Below the pieces are notes generated by a model, which was given only the letters and a program-made list of their open reading frames with translations, ran no database searches and was not told where the DNA came from. From Enterovibrio norvegicus DSM 15893 (GTDB lineage: Bacteria > Pseudomonadota > Gammaproteobacteria > Enterobacterales > Vibrionaceae): DNA of 53,286 nucleotides. The translations under genes and the position numbers were made by a program. Below are positions 6,753 to 29,234 of the stretch, one piece after another; positions within the stretch are counted from its first letter, which is position 1, and each line of letters opens with the position of its first letter. Where the stretch lies: contig NZ_FOWR01000034.1 of NCBI RefSeq assembly GCF_900115495.1, positions 1-53,286 of the forward strand, given 5' to 3'.

Positions 6753-6815
6753 TTTACTATCCTGTTTTTCTTATCCTTTAACCGGCAACCTTCATGGTCG
6801 CCGGTGTCGAGCGGT

Positions 6816-11151: not shown

Positions 11152-12390
11152 TCACTCCGCCGCACATATCTCGGCAAGCGTATTCAATCGTCGCTCAGGA
11201 TTTTTCACGTAAGGGTTATCGGTGTCCCATGCGTACCCTGCCAATATCGAGCAGATCATTTGTTTAATCTTTGGATCAGGCGACGGGTAGAAAATCACAT
11301 CTTGCAGCGTGCCTTTGTACCAACCTTCGACGTAGCAGCGGAAAGTATCAACACCTTTCAGCAAGGGTTCTGCGTACTCTGATTGCCAATCCACAGACTC
11401 ACCGTTTAATTGGCGCAAAAGCGCAGCAACCGATAACTCTGCAGATTTCATGGCAATCGTCACGCCAGAAGAGAAAACAGGGTCAAGGAACTCGCCAGCA
11501 TTTCCAAGCAATGCAAACTGCTTCGTCGCCAAAGTAGATACATTCGCGGAGTAGCCACCAATGGTGCCTGAAGGGTTCGGATAATCTGCCTTGCTCAACA
11601 AGGCGTTTAAGCGCGGCTCTTCCGAAGCAAGTTCAGCCAGCGCTTCTAAGTGATTATCAGGATAACGATCAAAGAACTCAGGCTCACCCACAACGCCGAA
11701 CGAACAAGTGCCGTTGCTGAACGGGATCAACCAATACCACACATCTTTTGAAGTGGGATGGACAGAGACAAGGATTTTTTCGCGGTCGTATTCTTCATCC
11801 TCGATATTGTCGATGATGTGCGTAAAGATGGCTTTGCGTGGCGGCAAGCAAGACGGCGATTCCAGATCGAGTAACCTCGGCAGCACGCGCCCAAAGCCGC
11901 TCGCATCAAGAATAAACTTGGCCTCAACGTCATACTCCAATCCGTGTTCGTCTTTGACACGCAGAACCGGAGAATCAGAAGAAAGGTCAACCGAGAGTAT
12001 TTCGTGCTGGTAACGAATTTCAACGCCTTGGCGCTCCGCTTCATCAGCGAGGACTTTATCAAACTGTGCGCGTTGCACTTGGTACGTCGTGCCCTCGCCG
12101 AGCGAAAATTTGTCGGTAAAATCAAAGGCGGTGTACTGTCCTTGCCAGTTAAACGCCGCCCCATTTTTAAATTGGAAACCGGCGCTATTCACCGCATCGA
12201 GCATGTTGGCAGCTTTAAGCGATTCCATACAGGCAGGGAGAAGGCTCTCCCCAATAGAGAATCGAGGAAAGGTCGCTTTTTCTAACACCAGCGCCTTCAC
12301 GCCTTGTTGGTGTAATAAGGCGGCGGCGATAGAACCAGAAGGCCCCGCACCAATAATGACCACCTCTGTGGATTCACGGCTCAACAACAT
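11152..12390 (-). CDS. flavin-dependent halogenase-like oxidoreductase of the aryl polyene cluster
   Basis: This is a 412-residue FAD protein. The dinucleotide-binding motif GAGPSG is at 14-19, and FPRFSIGESLLP at 41-52 matches the GES motif of flavin-dependent halogenases. K75 in GFQFKNGAAF lies where these enzymes have their catalytic lysine. WYWLIP at 218-223 fits the halogenase fingerprint WxWxIP, and GNAGEFLDPVFSSGV at 296-310 is a further family motif. At 412 residues it is shorter than tryptophan halogenases (about 530). The family also includes hydroxylases and reductases, so ring halogenation or hydroxylation of the pigment is an inference. It is the last gene of the minus-strand arm. 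AGGAG ends only 2 nt before ATG 12390, so TTG codons 2 or 3 may be the true start. Confidence 0.75.
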   Translation of the reverse strand: MLLSRESTEVVIIGAGPSGSIAAALLHQQGVKALVLEKATFPRFSIGESLLPACMESLKAANMLDAVNSAGFQFKNGAAFNWQGQYTAFDFTDKFSLGEGTTYQVQRAQFDKVLADEAERQGVEIRYQHEILSVDLSSDSPVLRVKDEHGLEYDVEAKFILDASGFGRVLPRLLDLESPSCLPPRKAIFTHIIDNIEDEEYDREKILVSVHPTSKDVWYWLIPFSNGTCSFGVVGEPEFFDRYPDNHLEALAELASEEPRLNALLSKADYPNPSGTIGGYSANVSTLATKQFALLGNAGEFLDPVFSSGVTIAMKSAELSVAALLRQLNGESVDWQSEYAEPLLKGVDTFRCYVEGWYKGTLQDVIFYPSPDPKIKQMICSILAGYAWDTDNPYVKNPERRLNTLAEICAAE

Positions 12391-12464
12391 CTCTCCTTAA
12401 TAAAAACCATGCTCGATAACACCAACGCGCAAGCCGTTAAACACGGATTGTCGACACACCTTTT

Positions 12465-13532
12465 TTAGCGTGCTTTTAATTCTAATAGGGTGTGACCCAA
12501 ACCGATATTGTCCGTTTGCTCCACCACATCAAAACCTGCTTCCTCCACAATTTGAAGGAATTCATTGCAGCGGTAAAAACGGCTGTTGCCGTTCGCCAGG
12601 CACGTAAAATATAGCGAGGTCGCATTCAAACTGTACGACGCCGCTTCATATTTTTGCGCATCCCAAAACAATTCAAGAACATACACCACCGCATCCGGCG
12701 CCATTGCTTGTCTCACACGGCGGAGAATACTGAGAATTTCCATCGGTGAAAAGCAATCAAGGAACTGACTCATCCACCACACGTCCGCGCCCTGCGGCAG
12801 TGCCAAAGACGTGTTCAACGCATCAAAAGGATGACCATGAATGCGACCTTCAAATCCTTGCTGTTTCGCATTTTCTAGCGCCATATTGATTTGCTTCGGC
12901 AAATCAATGATGGTGACGTCGACGTTGTCATCATGGTGACAACACTGCATTGCCCATTTGCCCGTGTTACCGCCGATATCAAAAATCTTTTTCGGTGAAC
13001 GCGCGAACACTTTTTTAAGTAGCAATGGGAACGAACGATCAGAGTAGAAATGATCAAACTGGAACCAGCTTTCTTTCGCCTTTTCAGGCAATTCAGATAA
13101 GCCTTCGTAAATCGTGCTCCACTCACCCAGCTCTTTCAATCCAGCTGGCTTACCTTCTTTGATGGCGTCAGTGAGATGCGCCATCGCGGCGTAACACACG
13201 TCTGCGGTGAAATCCATGTTGGCGCGCGTCATGCCATCATGCAGCACAAAATGGCCAATATTCGCGATTCGGTAGTGTGGTTCGTGCCACGTCACCAATT
13301 TTGCACACAGTGCCATGTCGAGCAACACTTTAACGCCGTACTCAGACACACCTGTCACCTCAGAGAGGCGCACTGCATCCAAGCCTTCAGCGTCTGCATC
13401 ATCCAGCGCTTTCAAAATACCCAGATCACGTAATGTTCTGGCGGTATGAAAAACAATCGGCGCAAAAGCAAGCTTTTGCGCCTCGGTCTTAGCATCAAAC
13501 GCGCTAATGGTATCCACATCAAAAGAATTCAA
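12465..13532 (-). CDS. SAM-dependent methyltransferase of the aryl polyene cluster (ApeB-like)
   Basis: The 355-residue protein has a winged-helix-like N-terminal region (about 15-100, with LSEVTGVSEYGVKVLLDMAL) and a class I methyltransferase fold. SAM motif I is FDIGGNTGKWA (about 180-190), followed by the acidic residue in TIIDLPKQ and a QFLDCFS motif-IV-like segment. This is the layout of O-methyltransferase family 2. Known aryl polyenes carry methyl groups on the aryl head, so aryl methylation is the likely role; C- versus O-methylation cannot be told from sequence. The only good frame start is TTG 13532. It lies 25 bp after the lipoprotein gene and 74 bp before the halogenase-like gene, forming one operon. 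Confidence 0.8.
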   Translation of the reverse strand: MNSFDVDTISAFDAKTEAQKLAFAPIVFHTARTLRDLGILKALDDADAEGLDAVRLSEVTGVSEYGVKVLLDMALCAKLVTWHEPHYRIANIGHFVLHDGMTRANMDFTADVCYAAMAHLTDAIKEGKPAGLKELGEWSTIYEGLSELPEKAKESWFQFDHFYSDRSFPLLLKKVFARSPKKIFDIGGNTGKWAMQCCHHDDNVDVTIIDLPKQINMALENAKQQGFEGRIHGHPFDALNTSLALPQGADVWWMSQFLDCFSPMEILSILRRVRQAMAPDAVVYVLELFWDAQKYEAASYSLNATSLYFTCLANGNSRFYRCNEFLQIVEEAGFDVVEQTDNIGLGHTLLELKAR

Positions 13533-13557
13533 ATTAAAACCTATTACTTAACATCAG

Positions 13558-13953
13558 TTACTTTTGAGATGCAGACAGCATTGAAAGCTTTTTACGAATA
13601 TCTACATCTAGGTTGTTGATCCAGCGATTGTAATTACGGTGAATCTTGCCATCGCTGTATTTTAAATTGTCAGAGTCAACATAGTGAATGGAATACACTT
13701 TATCGCTGTACTTCACATCAATGACCGCACTGTGAGAGCGTACAAATAATTCGCCGCGGATAACGCCAGGCTCAATCTCAGTCATCACCCATCCACGGTT
13801 TGACCCAGACTGAAGAATAGCTTGCTTCACGGTTGCAGCCGGCAGGTTATACGCGATAGGGGCATTTTCAACATTTCTGATCGGTTGCACGCGACCACAA
13901 CCAACTAACAAGACAGACAAGGTAAGCAAAACCAGATATTTTTGAATTTTCAC
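13558..13953 (-). CDS. small outer-envelope lipoprotein of the aryl polyene cluster
   Basis: A 131-residue protein with a type II signal peptide: a Lys-containing start, a hydrophobic stretch (residues 6-17), and a lipobox LVGC with the lipidated cysteine at C19. No Asp follows the cysteine, which suggests the outer membrane. The mature part is short, rich in beta-type segments, and of unknown function. It may correspond to the first gene (apeA) of enterobacterial ape clusters, but I am not certain of that equivalence. The start is GTG 13953, chosen because AAGGAG lies 6-11 bases upstream. It is the first gene of the minus-strand arm, divergent from apeC. Confidence 0.75.
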   Translation of the reverse strand: MKIQKYLVLLTLSVLLVGCGRVQPIRNVENAPIAYNLPAATVKQAILQSGSNRGWVMTEIEPGVIRGELFVRSHSAVIDVKYSDKVYSIHYVDSDNLKYSDGKIHRNYNRWINNLDVDIRKKLSMLSASQK

Positions 13954-14011
13954 GACACACTCCTTGTTATTTCACAGGCGGGCTGATTACCTATACCGAA
14001 GATTACGATAT

Positions 14012-14054
14012 GATCATGCATTACAACATTGATCGAACCGTAAGAAAATTGATC
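14012..14054. promoter_or_regulatory. three evenly spaced GATC sites in the divergent ape promoter region
   Basis: GATC occurs at 14012-14015, 14031-14034 and 14051-14054, spaced 19 and 20 bp. The last two sit in direct repeats of ATTGATC with a 20-bp period. This is inside the 134-bp region between the lipoprotein gene and apeC, where the promoters of both arms must lie. Two-helical-turn spacing fits a repeated operator or Dam-methylation-sensitive control, but no regulator is identified. Confidence 0.4.
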
Positions 14055-14087
14055 AATAACATAATCAGCGACGTTATAGCACCTCCC

Positions 14088-14837
14088 ATGAGTAGTATTC
14101 AATTCAATCTGCAACGACTAAATGCACTGTCACCAGGCCTTGAAAACACTGAGGCATGGGAGAATTGGTGTCAGCGAAATCACGCTTGGCCAGAGGGCGC
14201 GCCTGCACCTAGAACAGACGCCATTCCAGCCATGATGAAGCGTAGAATGAGTCCAATCAGCAAGTTAGCGGTGCAAGTTGCCACTGAACTTTCTCGCGCT
14301 GAGCACATCGATTTCGTGGTGTTTTCAAGCCGTCATGGTGAACTGCAACGTACAGCCACCCTGTTGAAAGACATACAGATGGGAGAGCCAGCGTCTCCTA
14401 CCGCGTTCTCACAATCGGTGCACAATACCGCTGCAGGCTTATTCACTATCGCCACCAAAACGCCTGTGCCCGCAACCTCATTGGCGGCGGGAGAAGACAC
14501 CTTTCACTGCGCCCTGACGGAAGCGGCGATTTATCTTAGCGAGCACCCTGAACACCGCGTTCTCGTGATCGATTTCGATGCGCCTACCCCTGAACCTTAC
14601 GATGCATTTGAACAGCAAGCATTCCAACCCTATGCGTTGGGTTTGTTACTCACAAAAGGTGACGACATTCGTATTGATCGACACCCAATGAACGGCGTTA
14701 ACGGTGGTGATACTCAAGAAAAAGACTTGCCACAAGGGCTTGCCTTCTACTCACAATGGCTTGACCAACGCACCCTTTTTGAGATTGAAAGCACACGCCA
14801 ATCTTGGCGCTGGCACATCAAGCAGGCAGAAAAATGA
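14088..14837 (+). CDS. apeC: ApeC, chain-length-factor-like partial ketosynthase
   Basis: The 249-residue protein matches the short beta-ketoacyl synthase-like N-terminal domain family seen in aryl polyene clusters. It has W-rich N-terminal motifs (AWENWC, near residues 20-25) and SVHNTAAG in place of a normal active-site cysteine loop. It lacks the C-terminal thiolase half with the two histidines. In characterised APE systems ApeC pairs with the ketosynthase ApeO as a chain-length-factor-like subunit. An upstream ATG at 14010 would add 26 residues unlike the family, so 14088 is preferred, although no clear Shine-Dalgarno sequence is present. It is the first gene of the long operon and overlaps apeD by 4 bp. 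Confidence 0.75.
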   Translation: MSSIQFNLQRLNALSPGLENTEAWENWCQRNHAWPEGAPAPRTDAIPAMMKRRMSPISKLAVQVATELSRAEHIDFVVFSSRHGELQRTATLLKDIQMGEPASPTAFSQSVHNTAAGLFTIATKTPVPATSLAAGEDTFHCALTEAAIYLSEHPEHRVLVIDFDAPTPEPYDAFEQQAFQPYALGLLLTKGDDIRIDRHPMNGVNGGDTQEKDLPQGLAFYSQWLDQRTLFEIESTRQSWRWHIKQAEK

Positions 14838-15625: not shown

Positions 15626-15632
15626 GAAGGCT

Positions 15633-15893
15633 ATGGTGAATACACTACATAACGAGCTAAAAACCTTGATTATCGAGGCATTGAACCTTGAAGATCTGAC
15701 TATTGACGATATTGAAACCGATGCTCCTCTTTTCGGAGAAGGACTTGGGCTTGATTCCATTGATGCCCTAGAGCTTGGGCTAGCCATTAAAAAAGCGTAC
15801 AACGTGGTACTGGATGCTGATGACAGCAACACCCGCGAGCATTTTGCTTCTGTCGCTAACTTGGCTACGTTCATCTCTGCCAACAAAGCGTAA
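15633..15893 (+). CDS. apeE: ApeE, acyl carrier protein
   Basis: An 86-residue acidic acyl carrier protein. The phosphopantetheine attachment site is S42 in LGLDSIDALE. It must be converted to the holo form by a phosphopantetheinyl transferase; none lies inside the ape operon, but acpS is the next gene beyond it. It is one of two adjacent carrier proteins, which differ in sequence apart from the DSIDA core. In the pathway it carries starter, extender or anchor acyl groups for the ketosynthases. AGAAGG upstream is a good ribosome site. Confidence 0.92.
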   Translation: MVNTLHNELKTLIIEALNLEDLTIDDIETDAPLFGEGLGLDSIDALELGLAIKKAYNVVLDADDSNTREHFASVANLATFISANKA

Positions 15894-15900
15894 GTAAATA

Positions 15901-16161
15901 ATGACAGAAGTAAGCAAAACCCAAGTATTTGAACAGGTACGTGACGCTCTTGTTGAGCTGTTTGAGCTCGATCCAGCGGACATCACACTGGAAATCCACC
16001 TGTACCAAGAACTTGATTTAGACAGTATTGATGCGGTTGATTTGGTTGTTCATCTGCAAAATCTCACAGGTAAAAAAATCAAACCTGAAGAGTTTAAATC
16101 AGTACGCACAGTACAAGACGTTGTTGATTCCGTAGTTAATCTGCTTTCTGAAGCCCAATGA
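15901..16161 (+). CDS. apeF: ApeF, acyl carrier protein
   Basis: The second 86-residue carrier protein, 7 bp after apeE. S42 in ELDLDSIDAVDL is the expected phosphopantetheine site. The EEFKSVRTVQDVVDSV tail is the usual fourth helix of carrier proteins. Two carrier proteins side by side are characteristic of aryl polyene clusters. It overlaps apeG by four bases (ATGA), so the two are probably translationally coupled. Confidence 0.92.
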   Translation: MTEVSKTQVFEQVRDALVELFELDPADITLEIHLYQELDLDSIDAVDLVVHLQNLTGKKIKPEEFKSVRTVQDVVDSVVNLLSEAQ

Positions 16162-16712
16162 GGCTACTTACCGTTTTAGCGGGCTTGCTGTTGCTCGCCT
16201 ATCCGCTAGCGGTATACGCAGGACTCTCAAACTTTGGGATCGCTCCCCTCGCACTTGTGCTCGTCATCCTTTTTGGGTTTCGCATCGCTTCTGGTCATTT
16301 AGCCAATCGTGGACCATTGAAACACCTCGCTGTCGTCACTGGCGCAATCGGTATTGTGCTCGTGTCTCTCGGTTATCTGTTTCGACAACACGATTGGCTG
16401 CTGTTTTACCCGGTTGCCGTCAATAGCGTCATGCTGACAGCGTTTGCCTATAGTCTGACTCAATCTCAATCCATGATTGAACGACTCGCACGGTTGCAAG
16501 ATCCCGACCTCCCACCTTCCGGTGTACGTTATACCCGTAACGTCACCAAAATCTGGTGTGTGTTTTTTCTGGTGAATGGCAGCATTGCGTTAGCAACCTG
16601 TTTTATGCCCCTGACATCTTGGACACTCTACAACGGCTTATTAAGCTATGTTGCGGCGGGCGTTTTGTTCGGCATTGAGTTTGTGGTCAGAAAAAGGGTT
16701 CAGACGTCCTAA
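16158..16712 (+). CDS. apeG: ApeG, small integral membrane protein of the aryl polyene cluster
   Basis: The 184-residue protein is mostly hydrophobic, with about five or six membrane segments (near 2-20, 24-45, 53-70, 75-95, 130-150 and 155-172). It matches the membrane protein regularly found between the carrier-protein and ligase genes of ape clusters (COG4648-like). No catalytic motif is visible and its role is unknown; involvement in polyene transfer or export across the inner membrane is a guess from context. ATG overlaps the apeF stop by 4 bp, and its TAA overlaps the apeH ATG by 1 bp. Confidence 0.75.
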   Translation: MRLLTVLAGLLLLAYPLAVYAGLSNFGIAPLALVLVILFGFRIASGHLANRGPLKHLAVVTGAIGIVLVSLGYLFRQHDWLLFYPVAVNSVMLTAFAYSLTQSQSMIERLARLQDPDLPPSGVRYTRNVTKIWCVFFLVNGSIALATCFMPLTSWTLYNGLLSYVAAGVLFGIEFVVRKRVQTS

Positions 16713-18088
16713 TGTCTCTCATTCCTCTTGCACAGTTGCTGGCGTGTGAACGTCCGCATGATCACCCTGTCGCGTTCAGTGACAATCACACAGCAACATG
16801 GGCACAGTTTCAACATGACGTGTCGTCACTTACTGCGCACTTCGAGGCCAAAGAAGAACAACGTTGGGCCTTGGCATTTGATGACAGCTACCTGTTTGCG
16901 ACCGCTTTTTTGGCGCTTTGCCACGCACGAAAAAACATTGTGCTTCCTGGCAATCTCCAACCCGGCGCGCTCAATGAACTGCGTCCGCATTTCGATGCCA
17001 TTGTGCATGATGAGCGCATTCAACTGCTCGCAAACACCCCTGCTGTATCTCTTCCGTACGCAGAGGTAAACACGCACGCCAATCTTTCACGCCCTGCCCC
17101 TTTTAATGCTGTCACGCTGACTTTGTTTACATCTGGGTCAAGTTCGACGCCGAAGGCCATCGTGAAACAGCTCAGTCAGCTCCAAGCAGAGCTCAACCAG
17201 CTTGAGTTTCAATGGGGGGAATCACTGTCGAACACCCGCGTTCAAAGTACGGTATCCCACCAGCATATTTATGGCTTGTTGTTCCGCGTGCTTTGGCCAT
17301 TAAGTGCAGGCCGTGCCTTCTCATGCAGTGATTTGGTTTACCCTGAACAAGTCAGCGCCGCAGCGCAATCCGATGCCACCTTGATCAGCAGCCCAGCGTT
17401 GCTAAAACGCTTAGAAGGCCAATGCAAACACAACGAATACCGCGCGGTATTTTCGTCCGGCGGCCCGCTTCCTTTTGATGCTTCAACGCACAGTGAGCAG
17501 TTACTCGGTCAACGCCCTGTCGAGGTCTATGGCAGCACAGAAACCGGCGGCATTGGTTTTAGACAACAAACCCTTTCGACTCAGCCTTGGCAATTGTTTG
17601 ATGACATTCGTGCCGAACTGGATGAGCACGGCTGCCTACGCTTACTGTCTCCTTACATTGATGCCAATGCGTGGTACCAAACCGCGGATCTTTGCGACCT
17701 CATCAACGACACCCAGTTCGTGCTGAAAGGCCGCGCAGATCGCGTCATAAAATTGGAAGAAAAGCGCGTCTCATTATCTGAGATAGAACAACGACTTTGC
17801 GAAAACGCATGGATTTCTGATGCCGCTTCTTTGGTTTTGTCACTTGATGAGCGCCAAGTTGTTGCCGCAGTCGTGGTATTATCCCCAAAAGGACAGCGGA
17901 AGGTTGCCGACGTTGGGAAAGGAAAATTTCAGCTAGCACTGAGACAACAACTTCGAGATTGGTTAGAGCCGATTGCGATTCCTCGCCAGCTCCGATTTGT
18001 TAATGCAATACCGCAAAACAGTCAGGGAAAACGACAGAAACAGGTGATTGAATCTTTATTTTCACCCGCATCGTCGACGAACGAGTAA
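16712..18088 (+). CDS. apeH: ApeH, AMP-dependent aryl acid:ACP ligase
   Basis: The 458-residue protein belongs to the ANL adenylating enzyme family. The ATP-binding motif is LFTSGSSSTPK (138-148), the A5-type motif is YGSTETGG (273-280), and the hinge and C-terminal part has KGRADRVIKLEEKRVS. A near-terminal NSQGKRQK carries the likely catalytic lysine. It is about 50 residues shorter than many acyl-CoA synthetases, as usual for ApeH. Characterised ApeH loads an aryl acid starter onto an aryl polyene carrier protein. Here the neighbouring ammonia lyase suggests a cinnamate- or coumarate-type substrate. Confidence 0.87.
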   Translation: MSLIPLAQLLACERPHDHPVAFSDNHTATWAQFQHDVSSLTAHFEAKEEQRWALAFDDSYLFATAFLALCHARKNIVLPGNLQPGALNELRPHFDAIVHDERIQLLANTPAVSLPYAEVNTHANLSRPAPFNAVTLTLFTSGSSSTPKAIVKQLSQLQAELNQLEFQWGESLSNTRVQSTVSHQHIYGLLFRVLWPLSAGRAFSCSDLVYPEQVSAAAQSDATLISSPALLKRLEGQCKHNEYRAVFSSGGPLPFDASTHSEQLLGQRPVEVYGSTETGGIGFRQQTLSTQPWQLFDDIRAELDEHGCLRLLSPYIDANAWYQTADLCDLINDTQFVLKGRADRVIKLEEKRVSLSEIEQRLCENAWISDAASLVLSLDERQVVAAVVVLSPKGQRKVADVGKGKFQLALRQQLRDWLEPIAIPRQLRFVNAIPQNSQGKRQKQVIESLFSPASSTNE

Positions 18089-18098
18089 CAGGTAAACC

Positions 18099-18449
18099 AT
18101 GCAAAGAAAACCCACTTTACTCAATACAACATTGAGTGAGAACACCGCCACATTAACCTTGAAAGTGGACGCAAGCCTTGAAGACTTCAAAGGCCACTTT
18201 CCAGTGTTCGCACTTCTCCCTGGCGTGACCCAGATTGATCTGGCGGTGCGTTACGCACGCGATACCCTTGGCATTAATGGCACCTTCGGTGGCATGGAAG
18301 TGATCAAATTCCAAGACCCAATTTTGCCTAATGCCACAGTAGACCTAACGCTTACATGGCACCCAGACAAAGAGAAACTGCATTTCAGCTATCAATCAGG
18401 CACCACTGCGCACTCATCAGGCCGCGTAACCCTTCGTCAGGCACAGTGA
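18099..18449 (+). CDS. apeI: ApeI, 3-hydroxyacyl-ACP dehydratase
   Basis: A 116-residue single hot-dog protein of the FabA/FabZ type. The catalytic histidine is H33 in KGHFPVFALLPGV, and the central helix is VTQIDLAVRYA. It removes water from the 3-hydroxyacyl intermediates so that the growing chain becomes conjugated. It is one of two dehydratases in the cluster (with ApeP); in studied systems the two form a heteromeric dehydratase. Confidence 0.87.
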   Translation: MQRKPTLLNTTLSENTATLTLKVDASLEDFKGHFPVFALLPGVTQIDLAVRYARDTLGINGTFGGMEVIKFQDPILPNATVDLTLTWHPDKEKLHFSYQSGTTAHSSGRVTLRQAQ

Positions 18450-18463
18450 GTGATTAACGTCGT

Positions 18464-20149: not shown

Positions 20150-21686
20150 GATTTCTGACAACCCTATTGTGTTTGGGGATGATCAGCTCACCATCGAGTC
20201 TGTTGTTGCCATCGCGAATGGACAACACGCTGCATTGAACAGCTCTCCTGAATTTAGCGCGCGCATTGACCGCGGCACCAAATTCTTGGAGCGTTTGTTG
20301 AAAGAAGAAGGCGTGATTTATGGCGTCACCACCGGGTACGGGGATTCTTGTACCGTGGCGATTCCGCCTTCTCTTGTTGATGAACTTCCCCTTCACCTCA
20401 CTCGTTTTCACGGTTGTGGATTGGGACAAAACCTAGACCATGCCCAAAGCCGCGCAGTATTGGCAACGCGCCTGAACTCCTTAACCCAAGGCGTCTCAGG
20501 CGTAAGCATGGAACTGCTCAACCAACTCACAGCTTTGATCAATCACGACATCTCTCCGCGCATTCCACAAGAAGGTTCGGTGGGCGCAAGTGGCGACCTT
20601 ACGCCGCTTTCTTATGTTGCCGCGACCCTTATCGGCGAGCGTGAAGTAATTTACAAAGGCGAGATCCGCCCAACGGCAGAAGTGTTTGCAGAGCTTGGCA
20701 TTAAGCCCATCAAACTCAAGCCAAAAGAAGGCTTGGCGATGATGAACGGGACGTCAGTCATGACGGCACTCGCGTGTCTTGCGTTCAAACGTGCAGAATA
20801 CCTGACCCAGCTTTCAACGCGCATTACCGCCATGGTGTCATTGGCAATGCAAGGCAACGATTTCCACTTTGATGAAGCCTTGTTTGCAGTGAAACCTCAC
20901 CCAGGTCAGCAGCAAATTGCGGCTTGGCTGCGTGATGATCTGCAAGCCGATCGTCCACCACGAAACAGCGACCGTCTGCAAGATCGTTACTCGCTGCGCT
21001 GCGCACCCCATGTCATCGGTGTTCTTCAAGACACCCTGCCATGGCTACGCCAAATGATTGAAAACGAACTAAACAGCGCGAACGATAACCCGATCATTGA
21101 TGGCGACAACGAGCGCGTACTACACGGTGGACACTTCTATGGTGGGCACATAGCCATGGCAATGGACACACTGAAAACCGCCGTGGCAAACATCGCCGAT
21201 CTGCTTGATCGTCAAATGGCACAGTTGATGGACTACAAGTTCAACAACGGACTGCCGTTTAACCTCACAGGCGCTGAAGGCGAGAGAAAGCCAATTAACC
21301 ATGGCTTTAAAGCGGTACAAATCGGCATTTCAGCATGGACAGCGGAAGCGCTGAAAAACACCATGCCAGCCAGTGTCTTTTCGCGCTCAACTGAATGTCA
21401 TAACCAAGATAAAGTCAGCATGGGCACCATCGCCTCGCGCGATTGTCTTCGTGTGTTGGAATTGACAGAGCAAGTCACCGCTGCAAGTTTGCTTGCAGCG
21501 ACACAGGCGCTTGAAATTCGTATTCGCAAAGGCGAACTCAACATGAATCACTTGAGCCCAGCACTTCGTCAAATGATGAAAGACGTGCAGAGCGATTTTG
21601 ACTTTGTGGTTGAAGACCGCCCGTTGGAGCAGGATTTACGTCGCTTTATCGATCGTATCCAGCATCAAGGATGGGAGCTTTACTAG
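20142..21686 (+). CDS. aromatic amino-acid ammonia lyase (HAL/PAL/TAL family)
   Basis: A 514-residue MIO enzyme. The tripeptide A149-S150-G151 in GSVGASGDLTPLSY forms the prosthetic group, and Y60 in YGVTTGYG is the catalytic tyrosine. NDNPIID and FNNGLPFNL are other family motifs. The usual selectivity pair is F89-H90 (TRFHGCG), which matches neither HAL (Ser-His), the Rhodobacter TAL type (His-Leu) nor plant PAL (Phe-Leu). Because it lies inside the ape operon, overlapping apeJ by 8 bp and separated from apeK by 1 bp, tyrosine or phenylalanine deamination to the pigment starter is more likely than histidine catabolism. No hut genes are nearby. Confidence 0.87.
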   Translation: MNKISDNPIVFGDDQLTIESVVAIANGQHAALNSSPEFSARIDRGTKFLERLLKEEGVIYGVTTGYGDSCTVAIPPSLVDELPLHLTRFHGCGLGQNLDHAQSRAVLATRLNSLTQGVSGVSMELLNQLTALINHDISPRIPQEGSVGASGDLTPLSYVAATLIGEREVIYKGEIRPTAEVFAELGIKPIKLKPKEGLAMMNGTSVMTALACLAFKRAEYLTQLSTRITAMVSLAMQGNDFHFDEALFAVKPHPGQQQIAAWLRDDLQADRPPRNSDRLQDRYSLRCAPHVIGVLQDTLPWLRQMIENELNSANDNPIIDGDNERVLHGGHFYGGHIAMAMDTLKTAVANIADLLDRQMAQLMDYKFNNGLPFNLTGAEGERKPINHGFKAVQIGISAWTAEALKNTMPASVFSRSTECHNQDKVSMGTIASRDCLRVLELTEQVTAASLLAATQALEIRIRKGELNMNHLSPALRQMMKDVQSDFDFVVEDRPLEQDLRRFIDRIQHQGWELY

Positions 21687-21687
21687 T

Positions 21688-22116
21688 ATGCCAGAAGCCA
21701 CTTTACAGGCTGAGGTTACTCTAAGGACGGCGTTTCAGGACGCCGATCCTATGGGTGTGATCTACCACGGAAACTATTTCCGCTTTTTCGAAGAAGCCCG
21801 TCGCGCCATGATGGAACAACTCGATTATGGCTACATGGCGATGAAAGAGTCAGGCTACATGTGGCCAATCATTGATGCCGCTGTGCGCTACGTAAAGCCC
21901 ATCAAGTTTGACCAATCCATCATCGTTACCGCCAAGCTCACCGAATGGGAAAATCGCCTTCGCACCGATTACGTGATTTACGATGCAGCCACCCGCAAAC
22001 GCTTAACCAAAGGCCACACCATTCAAGTGGCCGTCAGCATCGACACAGAAGAGATGTGTTTTGTCTCTCCGACCGTCTTTACCCAAAAACTCGAGGCGTA
22101 CCTGAGTGCTCAATAA
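21688..22116 (+). CDS. apeK: ApeK, acyl thioesterase of the 4-hydroxybenzoyl-CoA thioesterase type
   Basis: A 142-residue hot-dog protein. The start at 21688 follows the lyase stop by 1 bp and is preceded by AAGGATGGGAG, a good ribosome site; a longer frame from 21598 would overlap the lyase and is not family-like. DADPMGVIYHGNYFRFFEEAR (about 16-36) is the 4HBT active-site segment, with the aspartate in DPMG. It probably hydrolyses acyl-thioesters, either editing carrier proteins or releasing the polyene. Confidence 0.85.
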   Translation: MPEATLQAEVTLRTAFQDADPMGVIYHGNYFRFFEEARRAMMEQLDYGYMAMKESGYMWPIIDAAVRYVKPIKFDQSIIVTAKLTEWENRLRTDYVIYDAATRKRLTKGHTIQVAVSIDTEEMCFVSPTVFTQKLEAYLSAQ

Positions 22117-22723
22117 ATGCCGCCGTTTGTTCTCTGCGCTATTGCTGTTTGTGTGTGTCTTTCCTGCGCACGCATTAACCTTGTCTGATTTACAGACACG
22201 CCTTTCAGCACATGACATCACACGTGGTGATTTTACCCAAACGCGTCATCTCGCCATGTTGGACATGCCATTGGTGTCCCAAGGTGCATTCCTATTGAGC
22301 CAGACCGACGGCCTATTGTGGCAACAAGCCACCCCCTTTCCGCTGTCCTTGGTATTAACAGGGAAAACCCTGACACAGCGCATCCCTGGGCAAGCAGACA
22401 ACATCGTCAATGCGGATGACAATCCGATGGTGTTCTACTTCAGTCGTTTATTTTTATCTCTGTTCCAAGGAGATACCGACGCTCTAGCAGCGCAGTTTGA
22501 TTTGCAGCTAACGGGAACCACAGAGAAGTGGCATTTGGTGTTAACCCCAAAACAACCGCCGCTGTCTCAGGTATTTAAAGAAATCACGCTTCAAGGCACA
22601 GAGCACATCGATATGTTGACCTTGCACGAAGTCAGAGGCGATCATTCAGAGATTCGCTTTACCAATGTGACCTTCACACCCACGAACCTGACAGAAGAAG
22701 AACTAGGTGAATTTGCTGACTAA
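22106..22723 (+). CDS. apeL: ApeL, LolA-like periplasmic lipid carrier
   Basis: The 205-residue protein begins at GTG 22106, overlapping apeK by 11 bp. A type I signal peptide (hydrophobic 8-20, ending AHA before L24) directs it to the periplasm. The mature part resembles LolA, the chaperone that carries lipoproteins across the periplasm: GDFTQTRHL, SQGAFLLSQ and LLWQQATPFP fit the start of the LolA half-barrel. Being next to an MMPL exporter and lipoproteins suggests it ferries the hydrophobic aryl polyene lipid to the outer membrane. Confidence 0.8.
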   Translation: MLNKCRRLFSALLLFVCVFPAHALTLSDLQTRLSAHDITRGDFTQTRHLAMLDMPLVSQGAFLLSQTDGLLWQQATPFPLSLVLTGKTLTQRIPGQADNIVNADDNPMVFYFSRLFLSLFQGDTDALAAQFDLQLTGTTEKWHLVLTPKQPPLSQVFKEITLQGTEHIDMLTLHEVRGDHSEIRFTNVTFTPTNLTEEELGEFAD

Positions 22724-25013
22724 AGCAACAGGCTGGTTGCTTGTTCTTGTTTTGCTCTTCGCAACCTCACTGTGGCGCCAGCCTAGTGATTTGCCAATGT
22801 TGGACACTGATGTCCTCAATCTTCTGCCTAAAAACCAACAAGACCCATTGGCACAAAAGGCGTTCCAACAAGCGGCTGAGAACATTGAAGATCAGGTTGT
22901 TATTCTTGTCGGTCACGCGTCACCAAGTGTTGCCATTGAAGCCACAAAAGCACTTACCTCTCAGCTAACACAGCTTCCGTTGTTTGATAGCATCAAAGCA
23001 GAAATGTCTGACGATGAACAAAACTCATGGGGCACTGTCTTTGCGCCTGTGAAATCGCAACTGCTGACAACAGAACAACGCCAAAGGCTTGCTGACAATC
23101 CCTCTGCACAAACTGCGCATGTCATTCAATCCATCTATAACCCCTTTTCAGGCGTCACCGGAGCAGAGCTCGCGCACGATCCTTTCTTATTGTTCCGTGA
23201 TTTCTTATTACACCTCGGTGCGCAAAACAGCCGTTTTACGCTAAAAGACAATGTGCTCACCACCCAGTTTGAAGGCAAGACTTACACCTTGGTGCGTGCA
23301 AGCCTGTCAGGCAGTGCCTACAGTGTGCCCATACAAGAACAGCTCATAGATTTGTATCAGGCTGAAGCGCAGCTAAAAACGCAGTACGGTGCGGACGTTC
23401 TGCATACTGGCGCCGTGTTTTACGCGGCCTTTGGCGCAGAGAGTGCTCGGTCAGAAATCAGCACCATTGGTGTTGGGTCCATGGTGGGTATTTTGCTCTT
23501 GGTGTTGTTTGTGTATCGCAGCCTTTTGCCCGTCAGCCTTGCGCTGCTTTCCATTGGCTCAGGGGTTATCACTGCCTTTTCCGTCAGTTTGCTCATCTTT
23601 GGACAAATTCACTTATTCAGTCTGGTCATTGGAGCCAGTTTGATCGGTGTTTCCATCGATTACTCTTTCCATTTCTTAACGGAAAGAATGGCAATGGGCG
23701 ACAAATGGAACGCCAACGCTGGCTGGCGTGCGGTCGCTGTACCTATCACCTTTGGCCTCGCCTCAACGTTAATCGCCTACTTGAGCATGTTTGCTGCGCC
23801 TTTTCCCGGCCTTCAACAACTCGCGGTGTTCTCAGCCGCAGGGCTCATTGGCGCTTACCTCAGCGTGATGTGCTGGTATCCCTTACTTGCCGCGAAGCTG
23901 GCAAAAAAAAGAACGCTGCCATGGCAACGCGCAGCGGTTTGGTGTCTCGCGCCTTGGCAAAAAGCCTCATGGCAGCGAGGCGTCATGTGCATTGCACTGG
24001 GTATCGGCGTGCTCGGGTTAGTGTATGCCGATTACGATGACAACATTCAGAAGTTGCAGTCACTGCCACCGTCACTCAAACAACAAGAACAACGCATTCA
24101 AGATATTTCAGGGATGGGAAGCAGCCAGCCTATGCTGTTGGTGCGCGGCAATAGCGAACAGGCGGTACTCACGTCACTCAATGCATTAACGCCGTCTCTT
24201 GATGCGCTTAAAGCCTTCGGTGATATCAGCGGTTACCAAACGCTCGCCGACTATGTGCCGCCCTTGTCGATACAAAAAGACAACTATCAACGCGTCGAAG
24301 CGCTTTATGCCTCACAGGCAGAAAAACTGGCGACGCAGCTCGGCTTGGCTGAGGTTCCAACACTCAAACAGGCTTTTACACCATTCACACTCCGTGATTT
24401 TTTACAGTCACCGAGTGGCCGTGAATTTCAACCGCTTTGGCTCGGAGACATTGACGATCAATTCGCAGCGCTCGTGTTGCTCCAAGATGTGTCTTCTCCT
24501 GCCAATGTGAAAGCCGCCCTTGCTCATCACTCCCATGTCAGTTGGCTCAACAAAGCCGAGGAGGTATCGCGTCTGTTTGGTGATTACCGCCAGCGTATCA
24601 GCGTGTTCATTGGGTTGTCGTGCATCATCATTCTTATCTTACTTAGCCTTCGCTTTGGCATGAAAAACGCGTGCCGAGTTCTTATCGCGCCCGTATTGGC
24701 AGCGGGTATAGGTTTGGCCGCAGGCGCACTGAGCAGTGTGCCAATGAACTTGTTCAACTTGCTGGCATTGTTTCTCGTGATGGGCATCGGCATTGATTAC
24801 GCCCTCTTCTTTGCCGAGCAGAAAGACAGCCTTCGCGCGTGGGTAGCAAACACCTTAGCGGCGCTCACCACCTTGCTCGCGTTTGGTCTGCTGTCCCTTA
24901 GCAACACAGAAGCCATTCACAGCTTTGGCATTACGGTGCTCGTGGGTATCAGTGCCGCTTGGCTTCTTTCCCCCATCGCGATTCGCGCAAACAGTAAGGG
25001 TATCGCTAAATGA
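22707..25013 (+). CDS. apeM: ApeM, MMPL/RND-type lipid exporter
   Basis: A 768-residue inner-membrane protein. One membrane helix near residues 7-24 is followed by a periplasmic loop of about 220 residues, a group of five helices (about 250-400), a second large loop, and a final group (about 630-765). This duplicated arrangement is that of the MMPL/RND exporter superfamily. GVSIDYSFHF (about 310-320) and GIGIDYALFF in the second half contain the paired acidic residues of the proton relay. The start is GTG 22707, overlapping apeL by 17 bp. It is the best candidate for exporting the finished lipid to the periplasmic carrier ApeL. Confidence 0.85.
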   Translation: MNLLTKATGWLLVLVLLFATSLWRQPSDLPMLDTDVLNLLPKNQQDPLAQKAFQQAAENIEDQVVILVGHASPSVAIEATKALTSQLTQLPLFDSIKAEMSDDEQNSWGTVFAPVKSQLLTTEQRQRLADNPSAQTAHVIQSIYNPFSGVTGAELAHDPFLLFRDFLLHLGAQNSRFTLKDNVLTTQFEGKTYTLVRASLSGSAYSVPIQEQLIDLYQAEAQLKTQYGADVLHTGAVFYAAFGAESARSEISTIGVGSMVGILLLVLFVYRSLLPVSLALLSIGSGVITAFSVSLLIFGQIHLFSLVIGASLIGVSIDYSFHFLTERMAMGDKWNANAGWRAVAVPITFGLASTLIAYLSMFAAPFPGLQQLAVFSAAGLIGAYLSVMCWYPLLAAKLAKKRTLPWQRAAVWCLAPWQKASWQRGVMCIALGIGVLGLVYADYDDNIQKLQSLPPSLKQQEQRIQDISGMGSSQPMLLVRGNSEQAVLTSLNALTPSLDALKAFGDISGYQTLADYVPPLSIQKDNYQRVEALYASQAEKLATQLGLAEVPTLKQAFTPFTLRDFLQSPSGREFQPLWLGDIDDQFAALVLLQDVSSPANVKAALAHHSHVSWLNKAEEVSRLFGDYRQRISVFIGLSCIIILILLSLRFGMKNACRVLIAPVLAAGIGLAAGALSSVPMNLFNLLALFLVMGIGIDYALFFAEQKDSLRAWVANTLAALTTLLAFGLLSLSNTEAIHSFGITVLVGISAAWLLSPIAIRANSKGIAK

Positions 25014-25612
25014 TCAAACGATTTGCGTTTCTCATTATCTTGGCCATAAGCCTTATGGGCTGTTCAACGCTTTTAAGCACGCCTGAATCTGACAACCGCG
25101 TTGAGCTAGCCAAAGGGGTATCTGTCACCCTCCCCACACCCGCAGAATTTGGCGGCAGCGTGAGTGTTAGCCAACTCATTAACGCAGATTGGGAAGGTGA
25201 AGCACATACGCTTCCGGTGCATTTAGAAATATCTTCTGAGCGTGTGGTGTTGGTCGGGTTTTCGGCATGGGGAACCCGCTTGATTACCGCCACGTATGAG
25301 AAGGGCCGACTCGAAGAAGATGCGCTAGCAGGCCTCGGTATTGTGTTACCAGACAGCCGACAAATCTTGATGAATTTGATGATTACACTCTGGCCAGTGG
25401 AAGCATGGGCACCGCATCTCAAGCCCATTGGTTGGACGCTGATCGAACAAGATAAGCATCGCATCTTACGCGATGCGAGCGGCGAAACCGTGGTTGAAAT
25501 ACAGTATGATGAACCCTTCAAATTGGGGACGGTGCCAGCCTTCATCCAATACGAACACAAACAACAACATTATCGCATTACGATTAACACCCTGAGCCCG
25601 AACGGACGCTAA
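25010..25612 (+). CDS. apeN: ApeN, DUF3261-type lipoprotein
   Basis: The 200-residue protein starts with ATGA overlapping apeM by 4 bp. Its lipoprotein signal has hydrophobic residues 5-16 and a lipobox LMGC with C18 modified; Ser19 suggests outer-membrane sorting. The rest has no catalytic motif and fits the lipoprotein of unknown function regularly present after the exporter in aryl polyene clusters. It may be the outer-membrane receptor for the ApeL cargo, by analogy with LolB, but this is inference. Confidence 0.75.
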   Translation: MIKRFAFLIILAISLMGCSTLLSTPESDNRVELAKGVSVTLPTPAEFGGSVSVSQLINADWEGEAHTLPVHLEISSERVVLVGFSAWGTRLITATYEKGRLEEDALAGLGIVLPDSRQILMNLMITLWPVEAWAPHLKPIGWTLIEQDKHRILRDASGETVVEIQYDEPFKLGTVPAFIQYEHKQQHYRITINTLSPNGR

Positions 25613-25637
25613 TTTCAACACCAAGGCGGTAAACTTC

Positions 25638-26822
25638 ATGACTCCCGTTTACATACATGCCTGCGGTGCGCACTCCGCACTTGGCAGCACTCTCGATGAG
25701 ATTCATTCCAGCTTAAAACGAGGCATTAGCCCAGGTATGTCCGGCGAGCGCTTTCGGTTGAACGATGACACCATGGTGACCGTCGGTCGCGCAGTGGGCG
25801 CACTGCCGTCATTGGAAGCTTTTCCTTCACATCAGCAGACACGCAATAACCAACTGGCACTCTCTGCGTTGCTGCAACTGTCTGATGCCGTTAATGATGC
25901 CAAAGCGCGTTTCTGCCCTGATCGCATTGCCGTGGTATTAGGCTCGAGCACGTCCGGCATTTCAGACGGTGAGCGCGCGTTAAAACATTACATTGATCAG
26001 GGTGAATTCCCAAAAACTTACCATTACCACCAGCAAGAACTCGGTAACCTATCAGACTTCGTCAGTGACTATTTTGGCCTAACGGGGTTGCACTATACGG
26101 TTTCAACCGCATGTTCATCCAGCGGCCGCGTTTTTCTCACCGCGAAACGGTTATTAAAAGCAGGCCTTGCCGATGCAGTGATCGTTGGTGGTGCTGATAG
26201 TTTGTGTGCGTTAACAGTGAACGGGTTCCATGGGTTGGATTCAATCTCTCCTGAGCTTTGCAACCCATTCGGAGAGAACCGAAACGGGATAAATATTGGT
26301 GAGGCAGCGGCTTTTATGCTTCTCTCGCTTGAGCGGCCTTCTGACCTTCCTCATATTGCATTACTCGGCGCGGGAGACAGTTCTGATGCGCACCATATTT
26401 CAGCGCCCCACCCTGAAGGGGATGGTGCTGAACGAGCAATGAGAAACGCGCTGGAGGATGCGCATCTCACCGCGAATGACATTGGTTATGTGAATGCGCA
26501 CGGTACGTCTACGCCATTGAACGATGCGATGGAATCTAAAGCCATTTTACGCACCTTAGGTGAACACGTACCTGTGAGTTCGACAAAGCCGCTGACGGGA
26601 CACACTTTAGGCGCAGCCAGTGCCATTGAAGCCAGCATTTGTTGGCACGTATTGAAACATTCACTGCCGCTACCCGTATCAAAGCATCAACAAGCGCATG
26701 CAACGGATGTCGCGCCGATTCGATTGGCACAGCTCGGCGATACACTGGAAAAACCGGCCATTTTGAGTAACTCCTTTGCGTTTGGCGGTAACAATATCAG
26801 CCTGATTTTTGGACACGTATGA
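25638..26822 (+). CDS. apeO: ApeO, beta-ketoacyl-ACP synthase
   Basis: A 394-residue ketosynthase of the FabF/FabB type with the full catalytic triad: C159 in STACSSSG, H288 in NAHGTSTP and H322 in TGHTLGAA. It has the GFGG-like end FAFGGNN. In characterised systems ApeO condenses acyl-ACP with malonyl-ACP, paired with ApeC. It overlaps apeP by 4 bp (ATGA) and follows apeN by 25 bp. Confidence 0.9.
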   Translation: MTPVYIHACGAHSALGSTLDEIHSSLKRGISPGMSGERFRLNDDTMVTVGRAVGALPSLEAFPSHQQTRNNQLALSALLQLSDAVNDAKARFCPDRIAVVLGSSTSGISDGERALKHYIDQGEFPKTYHYHQQELGNLSDFVSDYFGLTGLHYTVSTACSSSGRVFLTAKRLLKAGLADAVIVGGADSLCALTVNGFHGLDSISPELCNPFGENRNGINIGEAAAFMLLSLERPSDLPHIALLGAGDSSDAHHISAPHPEGDGAERAMRNALEDAHLTANDIGYVNAHGTSTPLNDAMESKAILRTLGEHVPVSSTKPLTGHTLGAASAIEASICWHVLKHSLPLPVSKHQQAHATDVAPIRLAQLGDTLEKPAILSNSFAFGGNNISLIFGHV

Positions 26823-27283
26823 AAACAGTACCTCATGTGAATGATTTGCTTCCTCACGAAGCACCCATGATCTTGATCGACGACATGATCGATGTGGGTG
26901 AAAAACACATTCACTGCCGCGTCACCTCAAAAGAGAGCAACCTCTTTTTTGATCAAGAGATAAAAGCGATCCCAGGTTGGGTCGGCATTGAGTTAATGGC
27001 CCAAACCATTGCTGCGTGGTCGGGGTATCACGCTTGGCATGAAGGCGGCGAACCGCCTGTCGGCTTCTTGCTCGGCAGTCGTCGCTACAACACTGACACC
27101 AGCGTATTTCCTGCTGGGCAGGTGTTAGACATTCATGCTGATCACATGATGGAAAGCAACGGCATGGCCGTTTTTGCTTGCCGAATAGAACATGACGGCG
27201 TTGAGATTGCCACCGCGCAGCTCAACGCATTTGTACCGCCAAAAGAAAAACTCGAACAGATGATGAACAGGGATACCCAATGA
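26819..27283 (+). CDS. apeP: ApeP, 3-hydroxyacyl-ACP dehydratase
   Basis: The 154-residue hot-dog protein has the FabA/FabZ-like motif LLPHEAPMILID with H13, and E58 in GWVGIELMAQ as the probable second catalytic residue. It is the second dehydratase of the cluster and is longer than ApeI. In studied aryl polyene systems ApeI and ApeP work together to dehydrate the reduced intermediates. It is flanked by 4-bp ATGA overlaps with both apeO and apeQ. Confidence 0.87.
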   Translation: MKTVPHVNDLLPHEAPMILIDDMIDVGEKHIHCRVTSKESNLFFDQEIKAIPGWVGIELMAQTIAAWSGYHAWHEGGEPPVGFLLGSRRYNTDTSVFPAGQVLDIHADHMMESNGMAVFACRIEHDGVEIATAQLNAFVPPKEKLEQMMNRDTQ

Positions 27284-28005
27284 ACAGAGATGTACTGGTA
27301 ACGGGTGCCAGCAAAGGCATCGGTAAAGCGATTGCACTGCAACTCGCAAAAGATGGGTTTTCTGTGGTGGTGCACTATGGCCGAGATAAAGCAGGTGCAA
27401 AAGACACACTCGCTGCTATTCAAGCTGAAAATGGACAAGGTCGCCTCATCAGTTTTGACATCAGCAACCGTGAACAATGCCGTGAAACTTTAGAAGCCGA
27501 TATTGCAGAACACGGTGGCTACTACGGCGTTGTGAACAACGCTGGCGTTACCGCAGATACCGCCTTCCCAGCGATGACAGCTGAAGAATGGGATGGCGTG
27601 GTTCATACCAACCTAGACAGTTTCTACAACGTGCTTCACCCATGCATCATGCCGATGCTTCAACGCCGCAGAGGCGGGCGCATTGTTACCATGGCGTCTG
27701 TTTCCGGTATGATGGGCAACCGCGGTCAAACCAATTACAGCGCGGCGAAAGCGGGCATTATCGGTGCAACAAAAGCACTGGCATTGGAGTTGGCCAAGCG
27801 AAAAGTCACGGTCAACTGCGTCGCACCCGGTTTGATCGATACAGGCATGATTGACGAGCATGTAAAAGAACATGCGCTACCACAAGTTCCTTTGCGTCGC
27901 ATGGGCGAACCTGAAGAAGTCGCAGGCCTTGTTAGCTACCTGATGTCAGACATCGCAGGCTATGTCACGCGACAAGTCATTTCAGTCAATGGAGGCCTCA
28001 TATGA
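27280..28005 (+). CDS. apeQ: ApeQ, 3-ketoacyl-ACP reductase
   Basis: A 241-residue short-chain dehydrogenase of the FabG type. The NADPH motif is TGASKGIG (8-15), NNAG is at 86-89, and the catalytic residues are Ser140 or Ser142, Y153 and K157 (NYSAAK). The GG end motif is VNGGLI. It reduces the 3-keto group after each condensation. It overlaps both neighbours by 4 bp. Confidence 0.92.
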   Translation: MNRDVLVTGASKGIGKAIALQLAKDGFSVVVHYGRDKAGAKDTLAAIQAENGQGRLISFDISNREQCRETLEADIAEHGGYYGVVNNAGVTADTAFPAMTAEEWDGVVHTNLDSFYNVLHPCIMPMLQRRRGGRIVTMASVSGMMGNRGQTNYSAAKAGIIGATKALALELAKRKVTVNCVAPGLIDTGMIDEHVKEHALPQVPLRRMGEPEEVAGLVSYLMSDIAGYVTRQVISVNGGLI

Positions 28006-29234
28006 ACCGCAGAGTTGTTGTCACTGGTATGTCCGGTGTCACTGCGTTTGGTAACAACTGGCAAGACGTTAGCGCCAAGCTCGATGAGCTTAAAAATGCG
28101 GTACGTTACATGCCAGATTACGAACAGTATGACGGACTAAACACCAAGCTCGCCGCGCCGATCAGCGACTTTCAAGTGCCTTCGCATTACAACCGCAAGC
28201 AACTGCGCGGTATGGGTCGAGTCTCGAAACTTTCCACCGTAGCGACAGAGAACGCTTTGGTTCAGAGCGGGCTGATTGGCAGCGACACGCTCACCGATGG
28301 CCAAACGGGTATCGCTTATGGCTCATCAACGGGCAGTACACCCGCTATCGGCGCTTTCGGTGTCATGTTGAATGACAAAACCACCAAAGCCATTACAGCC
28401 ACCACCTACGTGCAAATGATGCCGCACACCACCGCGGTTAACGTGGGTCTGTTCTTTGGTCTTAAAGGCCGCGTTATTCCAACCAGCAGTGCATGTACGT
28501 CGGGCAGTCAAGCCATTGGCTATGCGTTCGAAGCCATTAAACACGGTTATCAAACAGCCATGGTTGCAGGCGGCGCTGAAGAGCTTTGCCCGACAGAATC
28601 AGCCGTGTTCGATACCCTTTTCGCGACAAGCTTGAGAAACGACGCCCCTGAAACATCACCGCGCCCGTACGACAAAGACCGTGACGGCCTTGTGATTGGC
28701 GAAGGTGCTGGAACCTTGGTGCTGGAAGAATACGAACATGCGGTTGCTCGTGGCGCAACGATTCTGGCTGAATTGGTCGGCTTTGCCAGCAACTGCGATG
28801 CTGCCCACGTGACACAGCCTAAAATGGAAACCATGCAAATTTGTATGGAAATGGCACTGCAAAACGCAGGCTTAACGCCCTCTCAAATTGGGTATGTATC
28901 TGCGCATGGCACAGCAACAGAAAAAGGCGATATTGCTGAATCTCAAGCAACGTCAAACGTCTTTGGCAATCAAATTCCAATCAGTTCGATGAAAAGCTAC
29001 TTTGGCCATACGCTCGGCGCATGCGGTGCGATTGAAGCCTGGCTTGCTATCGAAATGATGAATGAAGGCCGTTTTAGCCCGACACTAAATCTTGAAAACA
29101 TCGATCCAGCCTGTGGCGATCTTGATTACATCCGAGGTGAAAACCGTCATATTGATTGCGATTACATCATGAGCAATAACTTTGCTTTTGGTGGTGTGAA
29201 CACCTCACTGATCTTTAAGCGTTTCCAAGCGTAA
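28002..29234 (+). CDS. apeR: ApeR, beta-ketoacyl-ACP synthase
   Basis: A 410-residue FabF-like ketosynthase with C165 in TSSACTSGSQ, H302 in SAHGTATEKGD and H336 in SYFGHTLGA. In the characterised pathway the third condensing enzyme ApeR complements ApeO-ApeC, possibly making the starter or priming condensation. It is the last gene of the operon and is followed by a strong terminator 40 bp downstream. Confidence 0.9.
   Translation: MNRRVVVTGMSGVTAFGNNWQDVSAKLDELKNAVRYMPDYEQYDGLNTKLAAPISDFQVPSHYNRKQLRGMGRVSKLSTVATENALVQSGLIGSDTLTDGQTGIAYGSSTGSTPAIGAFGVMLNDKTTKAITATTYVQMMPHTTAVNVGLFFGLKGRVIPTSSACTSGSQAIGYAFEAIKHGYQTAMVAGGAEELCPTESAVFDTLFATSLRNDAPETSPRPYDKDRDGLVIGEGAGTLVLEEYEHAVARGATILAELVGFASNCDAAHVTQPKMETMQICMEMALQNAGLTPSQIGYVSAHGTATEKGDIAESQATSNVFGNQIPISSMKSYFGHTLGACGAIEAWLAIEMMNEGRFSPTLNLENIDPACGDLDYIRGENRHIDCDYIMSNNFAFGGVNTSLIFKRFQA

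Follow-up and report, generated by a model that had tools for sequence, protein, structure and literature searches.

The stretch analysed here, referred to as the window, is the 53,286-nucleotide contig NZ_FOWR01000034.1 of Enterovibrio norvegicus DSM 15893. Between the core genes barA and acpS, at positions 11152-29234, it holds 20 intact genes, recognized from open reading frames (ORFs), their translations and Pfam and NCBIfam profile matches, that almost certainly make up a complete aryl polyene (APE) cluster. The minus-strand arm consists of X, a flavoprotein resembling flavin-dependent halogenases, followed by apeB and apeA, and the plus-strand arm carries apeC, D, E, F, G, H, I, J, AL, K, L, M, N, O, P, Q and R, AL being an aromatic ammonia lyase located between apeJ and apeK. 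An initial annotation of this DNA had predicted such a cluster with both enzymes, and all the genes are indeed found at the positions and in the order that it gave, with a PF00221 match in AL and flavin-dependent-halogenase motifs in X. The features are listed below with coordinates, strand, identity and support.

11112..11139, no strand: terminator-like stem at the convergent barA/X junction; 12-pair stem, T-rich tail
11152..12390, minus: X, flavin-dependent-halogenase-like flavoprotein, 412 amino acids (aa); PF04820 90.2 bits (cut-off 21); GxGxxG, K75, WxWxIP 218-223, FLDPVFSSG 301-309
12465..13532, minus: apeB, S-adenosylmethionine (SAM) methyltransferase, FlxJ-like; NF053543 480.2 bits, below the equivalog cut-off of 560; PF00891, PF21212
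13558..13953, minus: apeA, small lipoprotein with LVGC lipobox; translation, no family match, position as apeA
14010..14837, plus: apeC, ketosynthase-like chain-length factor; PF13723 245.5 bits
14804..15625, plus: apeD, lysophospholipid-type acyltransferase; PF01553 from residue 83; mechanical ORF start, true start probably later
15633..15893, plus: apeE, acyl carrier protein (ACP); NF006617 above cut-off
15901..16161, plus: apeF, ACP; NF003757 above cut-off
16158..16712, plus: apeG, probable membrane protein; no Pfam or NCBIfam match; position, with homologues at the same place in relatives
16712..18088, plus: apeH, AMP-forming acyl-ACP synthetase; PF00501; best NCBIfam match 4-coumarate-CoA ligase, 103.5 bits, below the cut-off of 334.7
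18099..18449, plus: apeI, dehydratase; PF22818 ApeI-like 68 bits
18464..20149, plus: apeJ, glycosyltransferase/acyltransferase fusion; PF00535 and PF03279
20142..21686, plus: AL, aromatic amino acid ammonia lyase; PF00221 559 bits; Ala-Ser-Gly triad in GSVGASGDLTP; selectivity site RFHG
21598..22116, plus: apeK, hot-dog thioesterase; PF13279 from residue 46; mechanical ORF start, true start probably later
22106..22723, plus: apeL, LolA-like chaperone; PF03548; NF053544 flexirubin LolA2 75.6 bits, below the cut-off of 125
22707..25013, plus: apeM, RND/MMPL exporter; PF03176
25010..25612, plus: apeN, DUF3261 (LolB-like); PF11659 108.6 bits
25638..26822, plus: apeO, elongating ketosynthase; NF006618 528 bits, above cut-off
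26819..27283, plus: apeP, dehydratase; PF22817 ApeP-like 89.3 bits
27280..28005, plus: apeQ, ketoreductase; TIGR01831 above cut-off
28002..29234, plus: apeR, ketosynthase (initiation); NF006587 759.7 bits, above cut-off
29274..29302, no strand: terminator-like stem at the convergent apeR/acpS junction; 13-pair stem

A chance gene set is ruled out by the 559 bits of AL to PF00221 and by the scores of apeI (68 bits) and apeP (89 bits) to the Pfam families dedicated to ApeI and ApeP. All the components of aryl polyene biosynthesis are present, namely ketosynthase, chain-length factor, ketoreductase, ApeI and ApeP dehydratases, ACPs and acyl-ACP ligase, as are genes for lipid attachment and Lol/RND-type export (apeD, J, L, M and N). 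Core genes flank the cluster on the left (eno, pyrG, mazG, relA, rlmD and barA) and on the right (acpS, pdxJ, recO and era), barA scoring 1316 bits, above its NCBIfam cut-off of 890, and acpS matching Pfam ACPS. The terminators announced on both sides correspond to the stems of 12 and 13 pairs, one at each cluster end; terminator-like sites as a class are only slightly above expectation in the region (30 observed, shuffled mean 22.1, standard deviation 5.2), so that these two stems are supported by their length and position. The GC (guanine plus cytosine) content of the cluster is not set apart from that of the flanks, and no RNA families or tRNAs were found in the window. The nearest named relative is Enterovibrio baiacu, with an X 97% identical and the 20 genes 86-99% identical in DNA.

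The cluster belongs to the already known Vibrio-type, flexirubin-like kind of aryl polyene cluster, and it is the reduced versions found in relatives that are the more interesting part. All 18 functions of the E. coli CFT073 cluster APEEc (apeA-R; PMC8253772 Table 1) are shared, including the lipoprotein apeA and the SAM methyltransferase apeB, whereas the E. coli gene table contains neither AL nor X and its genes all run in one direction. The lipoprotein and the methyltransferase had been taken for additions that decorate the pigment, an idea that this table rules out since both are part of the standard set. This leaves just AL and X as extras, both of them usual for Vibrionaceae. In one draw of 150 Vibrionaceae genomes, with E-value limits of 1e-120 for AL places and 1e-20 for X, AL was found in 94 genomes (95 places) and X in 65, of which 64 also contain AL. 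These counts indicate that what had been described as a specially decorated version is the usual Vibrionaceae form.

In 61 of the 65 X-bearing Vibrionaceae, X and AL lie on the same contig, less than 15 kb apart and on opposite strands. Cluster types were read at all 95 AL places, window included and some cut by contig ends: 82 are full-type (64 in genomes with X and 18 without), two belong to a mini and four to a compact type described below, six are trios of apeC, apeE and AL, and one is a lone AL. Among 43 named loci, X is located between apeM and apeN/apeO in 26 (Shewanella, Methylobacter, Pseudomonas, Kangiella and others) and in a divergent arm like that of the window in six, all Vibrionaceae, the other 11 being otherwise placed or contig-cut. 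Outside Bacteroidota, 23 named loci have both apeJ and apeK in view, and 20 of them contain AL. The three that lack it between these genes (L060, L069 and L070, from Pseudoteredinibacter and Sneathiella) are ape clusters with X, and in another genome (L092 in G001) a distant X (41%) adjoins an ape cluster with no AL or apeB in view. In the trios (L096, L098, L099, L105, L107 and L110), apeC and apeE are the only ape genes near AL, and their lyases group together with weak support (65). L098, L107 and L095 have a similar gene close to AL, the last of these (in G120) being the lone AL, which adjoins two very large ORFs (1527 and >2000 aa) resembling nonribosomal peptide synthetase.

Three known systems other than that of E. 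coli are close to this cluster. The comparison with APEVf of Vibrio (Aliivibrio) fischeri ES114 is drawn from the A. fischeri X, the loci of one genome group taken as Aliivibrio (g10) and the published description. The A. fischeri X is 69% identical to that of the window, the g10 genomes have X and apeB divergent from apeC-apeR with AL, and the V. fischeri cluster has been termed flexirubin-like (PMC10286705); apeA was not detected by tblastn in the g10 loci. Flexirubin clusters (flx) of Chitinophaga pinensis and other Bacteroidota share the aromatic lyase starter (PMC3992019), a FlxJ-type methyltransferase and a LolA2-type protein. Two Algoriphagus and one Flavobacteriaceae metagenome-assembled genome also have X homologues (40-42%) close to distant homologues of AL and apeQ, in what are presumably flexirubin clusters. 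No dialkylresorcinol genes occur among the window's 20, and its proteins score below the flx equivalog cut-offs (FlxA, FlxJ with 480.2 of 560 over nearly full length, and LolA2). Finally, the xanthomonadin (pig/xan) cluster also encodes an aryl polyene pigment and includes a halogenase gene; in two Xanthomonas species with this gene the pigments are brominated (PMC3691225). This class differs by its starter, which comes from a XanB2-type chorismate-using enzyme (PMC3949708).

Taken as a whole, the genes have about even chances of forming a complete flexirubin-like (Vibrio-type) route to a yellow antioxidant pigment anchored in the outer membrane, with a coumarate start and ring halogenation. 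AL would deaminate an aromatic amino acid (tyrosine is the likeliest, giving 4-coumarate), and ApeH would load the aromatic acid onto an ACP. ApeR would carry out the first condensation, and ApeO-ApeC, ApeQ, ApeI and ApeP the repeated elongation, reduction and dehydration that lead to the polyene. ApeB may then methylate the phenol ring, while X may use FADH2 (reduced flavin adenine dinucleotide), oxygen and halide to place chlorine or bromine on it. ApeK would release the product, ApeD and ApeJ would join the acid to lipid, and ApeA, G, L, M and N would take part in transport to the outer membrane.

It is probable that the aromatic lyase product serves as starter, coumarate or cinnamate being the candidates named in the initial annotation. 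AL has the family profile and the Ala-Ser-Gly triad of aromatic lyases. Weighing against a coumarate start, it falls below every substrate-specific NCBIfam cut-off (FlxA NF053541 366.4 of 700, BagA/FevW 426 of 1000, HutH 407 of 539), and naming it a histidine, tyrosine or phenylalanine lyase from sequence was dropped, all the curated cut-offs being missed. Its selectivity site RFHG, identical in the ten AL proteins compared, is mixed in type, and we take it to fit neither a textbook tyrosine nor a textbook phenylalanine lyase. The genome has a further aromatic lyase gene at a different location (G000:C21:76335-77714). Alternatively, UbiC could supply 4-hydroxybenzoate as the starter, following the proposal made for E. 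coli, with AL having another task or acting on another amino acid. Besides the RFHG site, this would agree with the E. coli pigment being made without AL in the cluster (PMC8253772), and with AL standing alone or with just apeC and apeE in seven of the 95 places. A UbiC starter is nevertheless unlikely: 82 of these places have AL within a full-type ape operon, mini and compact operons retain it as well, and the best match of ApeH is a 4-coumarate-CoA ligase, though below cut-off. There is moreover the precedent of flexirubin, with a published tyrosine lyase starter and with FlxA being a tyrosine lyase though one of its two motifs resembles histidine lyase (PMC3992019). Because of this precedent, 4-coumarate is the starter proposed for the window cluster.

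X is the sole PF04820 gene found in its genome and carries the dinucleotide motif GxGxxG, the catalytic lysine (K75), WxWxIP (218-223) and FxxPxxSxG (FLDPVFSSG, 301-309), which together constitute the published flavin-halogenase fingerprint (PMC8407142, PMC5945002, PMC10696468). These four elements are kept in all of 165 aligned X homologues, and also in a spread of 33. Of the 165, 121 are proteins (that of the window plus the 120 top-ranking of 8000 scored) and 44 are copies from loci, some loci repeating proteins. By comparison, the lysine and WxWxIP are both missing from all of seven LodB/QhpG-like relatives of putative function; this control set, taken from other genomes, comprises six proteins of the LodB-like and one of the QhpG-like type, one of the seven being above its family cut-off. 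X is under purifying selection, with a nonsynonymous divergence (dN) of 0.013 and a synonymous divergence (dS) of 0.343 against E. baiacu, dS being saturated in 13 of the 23 such comparisons made. The fingerprint in X and the absence of lysine and WxWxIP from the LodB/QhpG-like relatives make a halogenated head group plausible. This is the leading reading, and the balance tips slightly towards X being a genuine halogenase.

Several observations pull the other way. PF04820 is a loose label, above cut-off in five of 14 control genomes including E. coli, and it therefore says little on X by itself. The best NCBIfam match, the halogenase CmlS, reaches only 134 bits of a cut-off of 900, in a model specific to one enzyme, and the closest solved structure by sequence, 3nix, is titled flavoprotein/dehydrogenase. 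The count of conserved motifs is skewed to close relatives (best 120 of 8000), although the 44 locus copies reach down to 40% identity. No flavin reductase is found among the 20 cluster genes, and no halogenated Vibrio aryl polyene appears among the matches listed from open-access full-text searches, while PMC8253772 cites xanthomonadin as its halogenation example and lists APEVf among expressed clusters. X could accordingly be a redox tailoring or maturation flavoenzyme of the same pigment cluster that retains a halogenase site without halogenating, the phenol head being undecorated or methylated only. This possibility is a serious one, if somewhat short of even chances. In addition to the literature searches and the title of 3nix, it is favoured by scores to the GG-reductase (117 bits), QhpG (100) and LodB (76) models, each below cut-off, and by one genome (G031, see below) in which X stayed behind when apeB-apeR was exchanged, so that a close match to the rest is not needed. 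It has to contend with the invariant lysine, WxWxIP and FxxPxxSxG, with the lack of the first two in all seven LodB/QhpG-like proteins, and with WxWxIP having been proposed to block hydroxylation (PMC10696468, PMC8407142). After 3nix, the solved halogenases 3e1t, 5buk, 7fco and 3i3l also match X in sequence. If X is indeed a halogenase, a large class of marine-vibrio aryl polyenes would be halogenated, which is unreported among the literature matches listed.

A comparison of the barA-acpS interval across relatives had been set beforehand as a test, and the 20-gene set proved not to be universal. In 18 genomes of the genus, the window's included, the interval holds a full cluster in seven, a mini operon in four and a damaged compact cluster in one, is empty in two (G014 and G055, with barA directly beside acpS) and is unreadable in four (no barA at threshold in two, and barA, pdxJ and AL split over different contigs in two). 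The AL tree unites the full, mini (two rows) and damaged compact versions at the site in a single clade (Shimodaira-Hasegawa-like approximate likelihood ratio test, SH-aLRT, 99), together with two unplaced clusters of the genus (L084 and L085). The trees were built by a quick method with SH-aLRT support only. A third of the full group was kept (19 rows), and excluding rows that contained a stop or covered less than 75% left just two of the four mini loci in the AL tree. In the apeQ tree, which includes rows of other genera and long branches, the mini group is supported (99) and the remainder weakly placed. In G031 (L083/L178), apeB-apeR is 87-98% identical to the window, whereas X (70%), barA (72%) and acpS (74%) have identities typical of other species, the changes falling between about 12350 and 12500 (X/apeB) and near 29300 (apeR/acpS). 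This indicates a block replacement of the core at this site that left X in place; the pattern is absent from G036 and Grimontia celer.

The site thus appears to be a long-standing resident locus that is polymorphic in the genus and has undergone loss, reduction and block exchange. The initial annotation had seen a self-contained accessory insertion, of which the variability within the genus stands, while a simple insertion is weakened by the AL clade and the block exchange, and a recent arrival of the whole set by the same tree and by the reduced versions at the same site. A recent insertion into an otherwise empty barA-acpS junction would explain the two genomes in which barA adjoins acpS and the sharp replacement boundaries in G031, and no version at the site was seen outside the genus, where the available pieces extend little past the cluster. 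It is improbable all the same, given that the full, mini and compact lyases of the site share one clade in the quick tree, that GC content does not distinguish the cluster from its flanks, and that some version is present in 12 of the 14 readable genomes.

Returning to the resident locus, its mini operon comprises eight genes (apeF, apeH-apeI, AL, apeK, apeP, apeQ and apeR) and is found in L076, L077, L078 and L079. In L076 (G026) it is intact at 3480-10191, with apeH and apeI in one frame; the genomes of L077 and L079 likewise have database entries for fused apeH-apeI proteins, 566-572 aa long. Matches are unbroken in L077, and AL is lost in L078. In L079 AL is broken, and since barA and recO are also in pieces there, the assembly may be at fault. 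The mini genes are under purifying selection (apeR of L077 against L078, dN 0.031 and dS 1.545; AL of L076 against L077, dN 0.099 with dS saturated), and those of L076-L078 retain the cysteine and one histidine motif of ketosynthases, the motif of ketoreductases and the serine motif of ACPs. The apeH-apeI fusion was considered as a marker of mini operons elsewhere and lacks specificity: stop-free near-full matches also turn up in several genomes of other families within a set of 394 from the order. The compact clusters have the order apeC-E-H-I-AL-(K)-O-P-Q and are found in L091 (G005), L109 (G138), L113 (G140) and L080 (G081), the last having broken frames and lying at the barA-acpS site. In these four, neither apeA, apeB and X nor genes for lipid attachment or export were detected.

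The two reduced types hold complementary halves of the pathway, the mini operon having the ACP ApeF and the ketosynthase ApeR, and the compact cluster the ACP ApeE, the ketosynthase ApeO and the chain-length factor ApeC. This division agrees with the deletion phenotypes described for E. coli, where an apeR mutant still makes the final APE lipid and an apeF mutant keeps partial pigment; in vitro work in Xenorhabdus, as cited in the same paper, found ApeR required for initiation (PMC8253772). A tentative and rather doubtful extension is that the Enterovibrio locus is modular at one site, the full version giving a methylated, halogenated, membrane-anchored polyene, the compact one a free polyene acid and the mini one, through a single extension, a short acid such as 5-(4-hydroxyphenyl)penta-2,4-dienoate, a product predicted from the gene content. 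As deletion sets provided by nature, the mini and compact operons predict which carrier protein pairs with which ketosynthase, the question raised by the E. coli apeR and apeF mutants (PMC8253772).

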